Source: Cyclobacteriaceae bacterium (GTDB lineage: Bacteria; Bacteroidota; Bacteroidia; Cytophagales; Cyclobacteriaceae). From it: a stretch of 64,000 nt of DNA. The notes under the pieces were generated by a model. The model worked only from the letters and a program-made list of their open reading frames with translations, searched no databases and had not been told where the DNA came from. Location: the NCBI GenBank assembly GCA_016786585.1, contig JAEUUI010000006.1:62001-126000 (forward strand). The letters are read 5' to 3'. Below, in pieces: positions 9,019 to 33,221 of the stretch (within the stretch, counting starts at the first letter, position 1; each line of letters begins with the position of its first letter). The position numbers and the translations under genes were made by a program.

Positions 9019-10830
9019 TCATCGCGTTTTCATTTCACGAATGGCCTTGGAAAAGGCCATTTTTATTTCATGACCGTTAACATGGTGTTGATTCTTAACA
9101 ACCCACTTCCCGTTCACGATCGTGCCCAGATTTCTGCTTGAATCGGAAGTATAAACGATTGACGCAAGGCGATTTTTTTCGGAAGTGTCGGCCAGCAAAT
9201 GCGTGCCGGCATTGATAATCAATGCATCAAACCGTTGTCCGATTTCAAAATGGTCGTTGGTAATCCGACCCATAGCTTTTCTTCCCTGTGTAACCGCTTC
9301 ATTCACAAGATACGATGCCGCATCTCCCGGGAATGTATTCCGGAGATTAGTAACAAGCCGCTGCCGGTAATCAATCATCCTGAACTCTTCAAATGGATTC
9401 AATCCGATATGGCTGTCCGTACCAATTGTCCAATGTCCGCCAAGTTTCACATACTCTTTCATCCTGAAAATCCCGTCACCCAGGTTTCCTTCGGTAGAAG
9501 GACACAGAACAACATTGGCCTTTGATGCCGCCAGCCTTTTTACTTCTTCATCATTAAGATGCGTTGAGTGTACGAGATGAAATCGTTCGTTTATCGGAAG
9601 GTTTTGCAACATCCATTCCATTGGCCGCTTGCCGCAGTGCGCAAGACAGTCTTCCACTTCTTTCTTTTGTTCTGATACGTGAACGTGAAATGGAATATTT
9701 TTCGGGCCGTTCGTGTAGGTCGTTACAATGTCATTCAGGTTTACTGCGCGAAGCGAATGAACGCTAAATCCAAGGCTTGCAAGCGGTTGATCGATAATTG
9801 CATGCGCTGAATCATCCAACAGCTGAAAATAATCTTCAACTGTTTTAGAAATAAAGCGTCTTTGTCTAGGCTGGGGATCTTTTCCAAATCCGCCTTTTTG
9901 ATAAAAGACCGGAACAAGCGTAATCTTTATCCCGGCAGTTTTGGCCGCCTCCACCATGCGCAGGCCCATCTCGGCAAGGTTGCTGTAAGGCTTACCGTCT
10001 TTATCATGATGCAGGTAATGGAACTCCGCAACATGCGTGTAGCCATGCCGGGCCATCTCGGCATACAACATTGCAGCAATTGCCTGTGCCTGGTCCGGAT
10101 CAACGCTCAGCGCGCACTTGTACATCTCTTCACGCCACGTCCAGAAATCATCGTCTGTTCCGGCAGCATGTATTTCCGCCAAGCCAGCCATGGCATATTG
10201 AAATGCATGCGAGTGCGCATTCTGAAATCCCGGTAATGCAAAACCATTTACTGATTCGATAGCAACGGCTTCCGCAGGAGCCTGTTCAGACAAATATTGA
10301 ATGATTCCGTTTTGATCAACGCCCACAAAAGCAGGTGTCATCCAGCCGGTTTGCAAAAGGAGGGATTGGAATTGAAAATAATTAAGTCCCTCACTCCTGC
10401 CCCTCTCCCCAGGGAGAGGGGTGTCCAACGGACGGGGTGAGGGACTTAAACGTTCTTCTATGTTCTGTCTTATGTTTTTCAAAATCTCATCTGTCTTATT
10501 AGTCACATCTTCATTCGAAAACCGAATAATCTCGATACCGAATTCGCTTAGAAACTGTGTTCGTTGCTCATCATAGTCCTTGACTTCCTTTAAAGAATGG
10601 ATTGATCCGTCCAGCTCAATACCAAGTTTCGCTACATCACAATAAAAGTCAAGGATGAAACCTTCCATCGGTTGTTGCCTTCTGAAGTTGAATCCCGCCA
10701 ACTTGCAGTCCCGCAGATATGACCATAACAGTTCTTCTGCTTTTGTCATTTCTTTGCGCAAGTCTCTGGCATTTTTCAATAAGCTATCCGATACTTTATC
10801 GCGCGTCCATTCACGTTTGAAGTTCTGCAT
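9019..10830 (-). CDS. hutF: DUF559 nuclease-fold domain fused to formimidoylglutamate deiminase (HutF)
   Basis: A 603-residue fusion. Residues 1-127 are a complete DUF559 domain (Vsr-like, PD-(D/E)XK fold): TKAEELLWSYLR, FRRQQPMEGFILDFYC (D61), LGIELDGSIH (E72, D74, H78) and IIRFSNEDV. Residues 128-149 are a Pro/Arg/Gly linker read from a nested palindrome. From N150 (NYFQFQSLLLQTGW) the rest, about 454 residues, is normal-length HutF, an amidohydrolase converting N-formimidoyl-L-glutamate to N-formyl-L-glutamate; its metal ligands are in NAHSHAF (206, 208), HVHVSEQ and GTDSH. HutF lacks its own start codon: the domain replaces it. The start follows the hutG stop by three bases. No stop codon separates the parts. 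Confidence 0.88.
   Translation of the reverse strand: MQNFKREWTRDKVSDSLLKNARDLRKEMTKAEELLWSYLRDCKLAGFNFRRQQPMEGFILDFYCDVAKLGIELDGSIHSLKEVKDYDEQRTQFLSEFGIEIIRFSNEDVTNKTDEILKNIRQNIEERLSPSPRPLDTPLPGERGRSEGLNYFQFQSLLLQTGWMTPAFVGVDQNGIIQYLSEQAPAEAVAIESVNGFALPGFQNAHSHAFQYAMAGLAEIHAAGTDDDFWTWREEMYKCALSVDPDQAQAIAAMLYAEMARHGYTHVAEFHYLHHDKDGKPYSNLAEMGLRMVEAAKTAGIKITLVPVFYQKGGFGKDPQPRQRRFISKTVEDYFQLLDDSAHAIIDQPLASLGFSVHSLRAVNLNDIVTTYTNGPKNIPFHVHVSEQKKEVEDCLAHCGKRPMEWMLQNLPINERFHLVHSTHLNDEEVKRLAASKANVVLCPSTEGNLGDGIFRMKEYVKLGGHWTIGTDSHIGLNPFEEFRMIDYRQRLVTNLRNTFPGDAASYLVNEAVTQGRKAMGRITNDHFEIGQRFDALIINAGTHLLADTSEKNRLASIVYTSDSSRNLGTIVNGKWVVKNQHHVNGHEIKMAFSKAIREMKTR
9041..9064 (+). terminator. Terminator-like hairpin overlapping the 3' end of hutF
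   Basis: Stem ATGGCCTT / AAGGCCAT (9041-9048, 9053-9060) with GGAA loop, then TTTT, 27 bases after the S9 peptidase stop. It lies in coding sequence of the convergent DUF559-HutF gene, so the two genes would share the element. Confidence 0.6.
10382..10449. repeat. Nested GC-rich palindrome inside the DUF559-HutF frame
   Basis: Perfect outer arms TTAAGTCCCTCAC (10382-10394) and GTGAGGGACTTAA (10437-10449) enclose a perfect inner hairpin CCCCTCTCCC / GGGAGAGGGG (10401-10410 region and 10412-10421) with a tiny loop. It is translated in frame as residues 128-150 (LSPSPRPLDTPLPGERG...). The same core and outer TCACCC/GGTGAG arms recur at 33112-33221, so this is an interspersed repeat family. Confidence 0.85.
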
Positions 10831-10833
10831 AGT

Positions 10834-11631
10834 TCAAAGCACTCCCGCCAAATTACGCAATGTTTTTTGCAGGAGTGCGCGCATCTCATTTGCTCGCGAT
10901 TCATCATAACGGGTTTCCGAATCATCCATATAATTCACCTTGCTCATCTCAAGTTGCAACGCATGTTCATTATTATTCGGATCACAGAACTGACGGGTGA
11001 TGTAACCGCCCTTAAACGGATGATTATGGCTTACCTCGTAGCGCGAGTCTTGAAGCGCAGTTAACGCAGTATCGATAACGGCTGACGAGGCCGATGTTCC
11101 ATCCGCGTCACCCAAAATCAAATCCGGGAACCTGTGTTTATAGATTGTTGGAACCACCTGCCGGATCGAGTGACATTCCCACAACAGTACTTTCCCGAAC
11201 TCCGACTTCAATCCATCAAGCAATTCACGTAGCTTATTATGATAGGGGGTGTAATATTGTTCTGTCCTCCGTTTTACTTCATCAGCCGATACTTCTTTTC
11301 GCTCATCCTGATAGATAGGCGTGCCGAAAAAATCCGTGGACGGACAAAGCGGGGTGATAATTCTGCCATCGTTGTACAATGGCTTGCTTTGCGGATCACG
11401 GTTTAAATCAATTACCCACCGACTGTACACCGCGTGAATGATCGTAATACCCATAGCGGGCGCAAAGTCGTACAGGCGATGAACAAACCAGTCGGTATCG
11501 TCTGGCGCCTGTATCATGTCTTGTTTATAGGTTGATTTTATCTCGTTCGGGAATTGTACACCGCAGTGCGGAATACTTAACAAAATCGGAACCCGCTTCG
11601 CGGTTGCTTCAACAATTTGAAAGGGTAACAC
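10834..11631 (-). CDS. hutG: N-formylglutamate amidohydrolase (HutG type)
   Basis: A 265-residue protein of the N-formylglutamate amidohydrolase family, starting at GTG with the bases TAGTG shared with the stop of the gene before it. Motifs include LLSIPHCGVQFPNE near residue 20, VIDLNRDP near 70, LLWECHSIRQ near 150 and the C-terminal LQLEMSK. It hydrolyses N-formyl-L-glutamate to glutamate and formate, the step immediately after HutF, which is encoded three bases downstream. Together they make the two-step ending of the five-step histidine degradation route; hutH, hutU and hutI are not in the window. Confidence 0.88.
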   Translation of the reverse strand: MLPFQIVEATAKRVPILLSIPHCGVQFPNEIKSTYKQDMIQAPDDTDWFVHRLYDFAPAMGITIIHAVYSRWVIDLNRDPQSKPLYNDGRIITPLCPSTDFFGTPIYQDERKEVSADEVKRRTEQYYTPYHNKLRELLDGLKSEFGKVLLWECHSIRQVVPTIYKHRFPDLILGDADGTSASSAVIDTALTALQDSRYEVSHNHPFKGGYITRQFCDPNNNEHALQLEMSKVNYMDDSETRYDESRANEMRALLQKTLRNLAGVL

Positions 11632-33111: not shown

Positions 33112-33221
33112 CCCTCACCCAAATGAACACCGTTTATAAAAATATAGTTAGCAACTGCCCTCTCCCAAGGGAGAGGGTACAACGTTTTGAATCGTCACAC
33201 GTACAATTTTAGGGGTGAGGG
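33112..33221. repeat. Nested palindromic repeat, related to the one in hutF
   Basis: Outer arms CCCTCACCC (33112-33120) and GGGTGAGGG (33213-33221); inner perfect hairpin CCCTCTCCC / GGGAGAGGG (33158-33166, 33169-33177) with loop AA. Core and arms match those at 10382-10449, but no protein is encoded between them. It fills nearly all of the ssb-gldD gap. Confidence 0.85.

Follow-up and report, generated by a model that had tools for sequence, protein, structure and literature searches.

How does a formimidoylglutamate deiminase (HutF) come to be made as the downstream part of a protein that begins with a nuclease? The question is raised by a stretch of 64,000 nucleotides (nt) from a Cyclobacteriaceae bacterium of the order Cytophagales (assembly GCA_016786585.1, contig JAEUUI010000006.1, positions 62,001 to 126,000), referred to here as the window. 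One open reading frame (ORF) of 603 amino acids (aa) in it, with an ATG start, joins a DUF559 nuclease, a linker translated from a palindrome and the full HutF (Table 1). We propose that DUF559 with a hairpin-forming palindrome at each end is probably a mobile element, of which the window fusion is a partly decayed copy. The traits that speak for it, as read from sequence, are the arrangement itself, the paired inverted ends, the spread over host sites, the conserved putative catalytic residues, the scars and, in two pairs of genes, an insert that appears younger than its host.

A DUF559 nuclease joined to HutF through a palindrome

The N-terminal part of the fusion matches the Pfam profile PF04480 (DUF559) over residues 18-124 with 115.3 bits (gathering cut-off 20.6; E 1.5e-33), and the HutF part matches TIGR02022 over residues 152-601 with 493 bits. 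Residues D61, E72, D74 and H78 are conserved throughout a 23-row DUF559 alignment, in agreement with an earlier reading of the DNA letters alone (the sequence-only reading), which had called the domain intact; the D, E-x-D and H residues are presumed to be catalytic from their resemblance to Vsr-type enzymes. A model of the domain (predicted local distance difference test, pLDDT, 85) matched 3HRL, a DUF559 protein of Neisseria, and 3R3P, the homing endonuclease I-Bth0305I (E 7e-4, template modelling, TM, scores 0.63/0.81), and more weakly Vsr (E 0.13); DUF559 is thereby modelled as a nuclease of the Vsr/EDxHD fold. The model of the full fusion (3 alignment rows, mean pLDDT 46) was too poor and was not used. 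Profile scans with Pfam and NCBIfam gave no transposase match in the fusion protein.

The palindrome that encodes the linker is nested, with outer arms of 16 nt (94% complementary) and inner arms of 10 nt (100%). Folded as single-stranded DNA, it gave a z of -6.45, which was equalled by 0 of 200 shuffles. The residues that follow the linker, LNYFQFQSLL, align with the native start MKYFQFKYLL of unfused HutF, so the two proteins are indeed joined at the point where the sequence-only reading had placed the junction.

History of the hutG/hutF junction

HutF is present in 16 of the 17 genomes of the genus. The 16 loci comprise three intact DUF559-HutF fusions (G000, G014 and G006), one DUF559 remnant (G003), two loci where palindrome remains are left but DUF559 is lost and the Met codon gone (G002 and G011), nine without an insert and with a native ATG (G001, G005, G007, G008, G009, G012, G013, G015 and G016) and one that was not parsed (G004). 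With nine of 16 loci unfused, an ancient, clade-wide functional HutF fusion was ruled out. Further relatives add to this variety: L204 and L205 carry the HutF fusion, in L153 DUF559 is fused to HutG and hutF keeps its own ATG, and L206 has the order HutG-palindrome-DUF559, second palindrome, hutF, with one palindrome on each side of DUF559. Because HutF fusions, HutG fusions, remnants and scars occur side by side among relatives, the element most likely had palindromes on both sides when it entered the hutG/hutF junction, and what is left of it differs between lineages.

The landing of an element between hutG and hutF had been proposed from the window alone, and it is supported by the unfused loci with native starts and by L206 with its two palindromes. 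The same reading held that the insertion had replaced the hutF start codon and left the operon translated as one fusion. The native Met is indeed absent from the HutF of the window, but in L206 the codon at this position, beside the palindrome, appears to be TTG; rather than being exchanged in one step, the start codon probably decayed after the element had inserted next to it. As to the operon, only HutF is fused, or HutG in relatives.

Hairpins at both ends of DUF559 genes

We then looked at the 210-nt flanks of 115 distinct DUF559 domains (from all loci collected, 60 regions among them chosen mostly for long frames). Exact hairpin arms of at least 9 nt were present in 139 of 227 flanks (67/113 upstream, 72/114 downstream), compared with 31 of 460 control windows, and stand-alone DUF559 genes behaved likewise (24/39 upstream, 28/41 downstream). 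By eye, the left end is often the reverse complement of the right one, loop included. Over 97 elements (the 115 minus 4 with short or masked flanks and 14 near-copies), the left end scored on average 19.8 with its own inverted right end and 9.4 with the ends of other elements (p 2e-22), and the inverted pairing scored above the direct one in 61 elements, with 4 ties. The mobile unit that the sequence-only reading had made of DUF559 and one palindrome is thus supported by association and scars, except that the unit has two inverted palindromes.

The association extends beyond the order. Among 29 loci sampled across Bacteroidota, 22 of 58 flanks and 0 of 92 controls had arms of at least 10 nt, and 8 loci reached an inverted-repeat score of at least 15 (0.3% of shuffles). 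Sixteen loci from other phyla (14 of the 42 plasmid-collection records with matches, picked for organism spread, and 2 of the 5 loci of another set) gave arms of at least 10 nt in 16 of 32 flanks and 0 of 44 controls, and a score of at least 15, reached by no shuffle, in 8 of 16. DUF559 genes with flanking palindromes came from Bacteroidota, Pseudomonadota, Cyanobacteriota, Deinococcota and one Clostridia metagenome-assembled genome (MAG). In Sphingomonas (L259, NZ_CP155753.1) a DUF559 gene with inverted palindromes lies between sufB and sufC. In Sinorhizobium meliloti (L267, CP090106.1) DUF559 stands between near-perfect inverted units of about 100 nt (score 94) with two palindromes each, and 39 places of this record match the palindrome-unit query. 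These units presumably resemble Rhizobium-specific intergenic mosaic elements (RIME), which to our knowledge are intergenic repeats without a gene.

Outside Bacteroidota the flanking hairpins are, by eye, mostly CCCTC/GAGGG-like. For this reason, and because the CGTC tag was not consistently found beside the hairpins (also by eye), CGTC-tagged repetitive extragenic palindromes (REPs) were dropped as the partner repeat of DUF559; at a Neisseria DUF559 locus, CGTC is present beside the hairpins.

Solitary palindromes follow DUF559 from genome to genome

Copies of the palindrome were searched with the pattern CCCTCTCC-N(1-8)-GGAGAGGG, the reversed pattern serving as control. Within the genus, 73 copies were found in 12 of 17 genomes and none of the control. 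In one draw of 291 genomes of the order, with this one pattern and with DUF559 called at E <= 1e-15, 125 genomes carried DUF559. The hairpin occurred in 86 of these 125 as against 25 of the 166 without DUF559 (odds ratio, OR, 12.4, p 3e-21), with 1851 copies in the former and 130 in the latter, and permutation within families gave a p of 5e-5. The control pattern was present in 6 genomes with 1 or 2 copies.

The source genome has one DUF559 match and four hairpins of the searched pattern: that of the fusion, one after an ssb-like gene of the window, one at about 0.2 kb from a frame resembling ftsZ and one inside an RlmD/RumA-like gene (the names ssb, ftsZ and RlmD are our reading of the sequences and not the outcome of a profile search). 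In the last case (L005, C30:158966-158985) the palindrome is translated in frame within the rRNA methyltransferase as ..NSPSPRRSDTPLPGEREG.., a peptide nearly equal to that of the HutF linker. In genome G008, 7 of 14 hairpins have the identical sequence CCCTCTCCTGCAGGAGAGGG, as if multiplied recently.

DUF559 lies in frame within many unrelated host proteins

In-frame DUF559 domains with palindrome-like peptides on one or both sides were found in many unrelated host proteins. The hosts comprise leucyl-tRNA synthetase (LeuRS; at site A, which precedes VFTTR, and at site B, which precedes TTMPGW), isoleucyl-tRNA synthetase (IleRS), MetH (sites 1 and 2), MutS, AddA and AddB. DUF559 is N-terminal in RecQ, QueG and SpoU/RlmB-type proteins, and C-terminal in PurQ-like and HutG proteins; further hosts are HsdM, HsdR and Eco57I/PglX/ISP-type proteins, among them an Eco57I-type protein of a cyanobacterial plasmid. 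Copies within host proteins were seen in Bacteroidota and in one cyanobacterium. The Pro/Arg/Gly-rich tails that the sequence-only reading had attributed to DUF559 proteins are present in the DUF559 frames of other genomes. In each of two MetH-like frames (L130 and L167), DUF559 occurs twice and is surrounded by palindrome peptides. MetH may also carry a palindrome-only insert beside DUF559 at the other site, as at site 2 of L142 and at site 1 of L167, where the insert is a tandem run of SPSFEGGEQK-type peptides. As a side observation, the hosts include DNA repair (MutS, AddA, AddB, RecQ), aminoacyl-tRNA synthetase and restriction-modification genes; target choice and host tolerance are both possible reasons for this spectrum.

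In the survey of the order, ORFs of more than 250 aa held 60 of the best 150 DUF559 matches by E-value, whereas the Vsr and Y1 (IS200-type) transposase frames were all of at most 219 aa among the matches listed. Since the 115-domain set is enriched for long frames, 60/150 is the fairer estimate of the long-frame share. Motifs placed 49 of 74 distinct long-frame domains at one of 11 host sites; the remaining 25 lie C-terminally or have no such assignment, and some of them were named by profile scans.

LeuRS was compared in 15 of the 17 genomes of the genus (the gene is fragmented in G006, and G010 has no LeuRS above the cut-off). Site A is filled in G002, G011 and G015 and site B in G007 and G008, and the other genes are empty or have short scars (G001 at B, perhaps G009 at B and G012 at A), so that the two sites are reciprocal empty controls within one genus. 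Because each genome with a filled LeuRS shows one set of strong LeuRS matches, among the matches listed, and because the filled genes retain HIGH- and KMSKS-type motifs, the LeuRS genes with inserts are very likely functional. No intein or self-splicing Pfam domain was detected in 13 fused proteins scanned, and no Rfam match to an intron in 14 loci scanned.

Signs of movement and selection

A tree of the 115 domains requires at least 35 host-class changes for 14 classes (minimum 13). As the shuffled mean is 69.8, host sites are also partly inherited. The LeuRS inserts at sites A and B of the genus cluster together (Shimodaira-Hasegawa-like approximate likelihood ratio test, SH-aLRT, 85), and a MetH and a LeuRS insert of genome G107 are sisters (SH-aLRT 82).

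We then compared insert and host divergence in five profiled pairs, which, like the 16 pairs used for the ratio of nonsynonymous to synonymous divergence (dN/dS), were hand-picked among close pairs. Between the LeuRS genes of G002 and G011, 4 of 44 fourfold sites differ in the insert (residues 301-420) and 141 of 300 outside it, a block over the end of the insert (4/30) being excluded from both counts. On the left the differences end 8 nt before GCCTCA, and on the right a few lie within the palindrome and they resume directly after GAGGC; the change points thus coincide with the ends predicted from the inverted repeat. Between G200 and G192, 0 of 53 sites differ in the insert and 87 of 261 in the rest of LeuRS. 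The left edge is sharp, with one difference in the left palindrome, and identity extends beyond the right end, a pattern expected from co-conversion. By this measure the insert appears clearly younger than the host gene in two of the five profiled pairs, both of LeuRS.

In all 9 pairs for which both values were computed, DUF559 had a lower synonymous divergence than the stretch of host gene. As several of these values are near saturation and those of L115/L123 are nearly equal for DUF559 and host, the argument for young inserts rests on the two LeuRS pairs. The dN/dS of DUF559 was 0.006-0.138 in 15 of 16 pairs, the remaining one being saturated at synonymous sites, and D, E and D are invariant in 115 of 115 domains and H in 114. 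From this low dN/dS and the constancy of the putative catalytic residues, the nuclease appears to be under purifying selection and kept active. Carriage by phages had little support (2 phage records and 4 viral contigs in three IMG/VR scans).

Weighing the explanations

Several points weigh against a mobile element with hairpin ends. The window copy keeps its right-hand palindrome only, with no comparable hairpin upstream of DUF559 and therefore no paired terminal inverted repeats, and many other elements lack a recognisable hairpin on one side. In 32 of the 97 elements the direct pairing of ends scored above the inverted one, because the ends themselves are near-symmetric. An Escherichia coli DUF559 locus (L275, NZ_CP141089.1; examined later and outside the 16-locus counts) has no matching upstream hairpin, its upstream arm being 7 nt, and downstream it has the 10-nt arm pair TCACCCCAGC/GCTGGGGTGA around 43 nt. 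Genome-wide, 39 of the 125 genomes with DUF559 are devoid of the searched hairpin and 25 of the 166 without DUF559 have some; Vsr also correlates with hairpins, more weakly than DUF559 (OR 3.0, p 2e-4). An open frame is no proof of fusion, 25 of the 74 long-frame domains have no motif assignment and L178 at least looks spurious; the tolerance of hosts for inserts is suggested by the LeuRS match sets and intact motifs. The host loops that hold inserts are too variable to define any target-site duplication, the host-site tree, built on 119 columns, has poor resolution with 25 of its 112 branches starred, and three of the five profiled pairs (G007/G008, G014/G006 and G059/G101) show a weaker insert-host contrast or none. 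Finally, the accessible text of PMC12907096 ties a Caulobacter DUF559 protein to mismatch repair.

The main rivals are a pure homing model and a passenger model. If DUF559 did no more than home, cutting alleles without an insert and being copied into them by the recombination of the host, while the palindromes served only as a safe, translatable linker or arose as a by-product of repair, one would understand the fold match to I-Bth0305I, the same-site LeuRS and MetH inserts across genera, and the two pairs in which the insert is much younger than the host, with a sharp left edge and, in one of them, identity beyond the right end. Homing by itself leaves unexplained the inverted pairing of the ends with their matched loops, the solitary palindromes that track DUF559 genome-wide and the some fifteen unrelated host families, and we regard it as unlikely. 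The other rival has the palindromes moved by a different enzyme, for instance a REP-type Y1 transposase, with DUF559 riding between two copies. Palindromes do far outnumber DUF559 genes, and among genomes without DUF559 hairpins are found in 19 of 85 with Y1 vs 6 of 81 without. In contrast, hairpins track Y1 far less than DUF559 (OR 1.6, p 0.07), DUF559 still predicts hairpins among genomes without Y1 (37/52 vs 6/81, OR 31; OR 7.1 among those with Y1), Y1 adds nothing among genomes with DUF559 (49/73 with Y1 vs 37/52 without), and a mere passenger would hardly be expected to remain under purifying selection with invariant catalytic residues; this makes the passenger model quite improbable.

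The link to mismatch repair suggests yet another explanation, in which DUF559 is a Vsr-like repair enzyme and the fusions are ordinary functional ones formed at recombination-prone palindromes. The Caulobacter protein, VsrA, triggers a DNA damage response in the absence of the methylase ScmA, according to the accessible text of PMC12907096, and there is a weak fold similarity to Vsr. A housekeeping enzyme fits poorly with the patchy presence, the changing hosts, the scars and the young inserts within one gene, and canonical Vsr is not in long frames among the matches listed in the same survey. We therefore give this explanation very little credence. Altogether, the mobile element with a palindrome at each end is the reading that we retain, and the interpretation made from the window alone is, as a whole, supported.

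Relation to known systems

The sequence-only reading had compared the unit with REP-associated tyrosine transposases (RAYT). In the accessible text of PMC3733652, REPtrons (RAYT) and TIRtrons consist of a nuclease gene between inverted palindromes, with solitary palindromes elsewhere in the genome. DUF559 elements are alike in having inverted palindromes on both sides (the window copy keeps one flank) and solitary copies elsewhere. The likeness is one of arrangement only, because the predicted nuclease fold is Vsr/EDxHD and not the HUH fold of the Y1 tyrosine transposases; a further difference is that the whole DUF559 element, gene included, is translated inside host proteins. The same text mentions palindromic repeats that sometimes lie within genes, repair genes among them, and a CGTC superfamily of repeats, some Rickettsia palindromic elements (RPE) included, apparently without a dedicated transposase.

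RPE are inserted in frame in protein genes (PMC10969869, accessible text) and are about 150 bp long, coding for a conserved peptide (PMC10969869 and PMC3733652, accessible text). The DUF559 palindrome resembles them in being translated in frame in unrelated genes (the HutF linker, the rRNA methyltransferase and MetH). As far as these texts go, RPE are short peptide-coding elements without an enzyme, whereas the palindromes here enclose a nuclease of about 120 aa. With the EDxHD homing endonucleases such as I-Bth0305I (PMC3943268, accessible text), DUF559 shares the predicted nuclease fold, conserved sites in genes and signs of same-site lateral spread; it differs in its hairpin ends, in being translated as an extra domain and in having no intein or intron in those scanned. 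The terminal inverted repeats of the DUF559 set, near-perfect in S. meliloti, recall insertion sequences. The Neisseria protein 3HRL and, from the accessible text of PMC12907096, Caulobacter VsrA belong to the same family (PF04480) and have the same domain as the window nuclease. Among the papers listed by our searches of open-licence PubMed Central (PMC) full text, none links DUF559 to flanking palindromes, mobility or in-frame insertion.

A possible life cycle and what it would mean

In the model that we favour, the DUF559 nuclease, of about 120 aa, would be the only gene of the element and the palindromes its ends. The element would enter genes and gene junctions, and copies in essential genes would survive if they lie in the sense strand and frame of the host, the element and its palindromes then being translated as a flexible extra domain. 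In-frame insertions could persist in needed genes because the palindrome reads as a Pro/Gly/Ser-rich linker; out-of-frame ones would be removed by selection or be located between genes. Between lineages, the element would spread to the same site as a homing endonuclease does, the empty allele being cut and the element copied during repair, a habit to which the young inserts point indirectly. Given the inverted ends, the solitary copies and the varied hosts, it may occasionally enter new sites through its hairpin ends. Three points here are inferred from the sequence patterns: DUF559 would cut DNA, it would recognise either the hairpins or the empty target, and it would reach new sites in the way described. 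Solitary palindromes would be left behind, and old copies would decay to scars. In the window, the left palindrome would have been lost and the hutF start would have decayed, and HutF would now be made as a DUF559-HutF fusion.

We lean, if only slightly, towards a broader proposal, namely that these elements form a class in which a single small nuclease of the Vsr/EDxHD fold, framed by hairpin ends, propagates without splicing as a translated domain of host proteins, some of them essential, and is also the mobiliser of a good part of the GC-rich CCCTC[AT]CCC-type palindromes. We know of no reported mobiliser for such palindromes of bacteria. If this is true, DUF559, a domain of unknown function so far, would turn out to be the enzyme behind a widespread kind of mobile DNA, and there would be a candidate mobiliser for a class of palindromes that abounds in bacteria. 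A selfish nuclease could then persist in essential single-copy genes without splicing, as a harmless translated loop domain, a problem that inteins and introns solve differently. This would also account for puzzling additional domains and for Pro/Gly-rich inserts in LeuRS, IleRS, MetH, MutS and AddA, which would provide natural examples of domain insertions that proteins tolerate.

Features of the window

The features of the fusion locus, together with a second nested palindrome of the window, are given in Table 1.

Table 1. Position and strand of the fusion, its parts, its upstream neighbour and the solitary palindrome (window coordinates).
Feature	Position	Strand	Basis or remark
DUF559-HutF fusion ORF, 603 aa	9019..10830	-	ORF and domain profile matches
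DUF559 nuclease domain, residues 18-124, with D61, E72, D74 and H78	10459..10779	-	profile, alignment, fold model
Linker, residues 128-149, encoded by palindrome	10384..10449	-	translation, HutF alignment
HutF (formimidoylglutamate deiminase) part, residue 150 to stop; Leu (CTT) at native Met position	9019..10383	-	
Right-hand nested palindrome: outer arms 10382-10397/10434-10449, inner arms 10400-10409/10412-10421	10382..10449	.	
hutG, upstream neighbour of fusion	10834..11631	-	stop codon 3 nt before DUF559 ATG
Solitary nested palindrome CCCTCACCC..CCCTCTCCC-AA-GGGAGAGGG..GGGTGAGGG	33112..33221	.	same type as the fusion palindrome; directly after ssb-like stop codon, without DUF559

The nearest named relatives of the DUF559 part of the window are Cytophagales and Cyclobacteriaceae MAGs.

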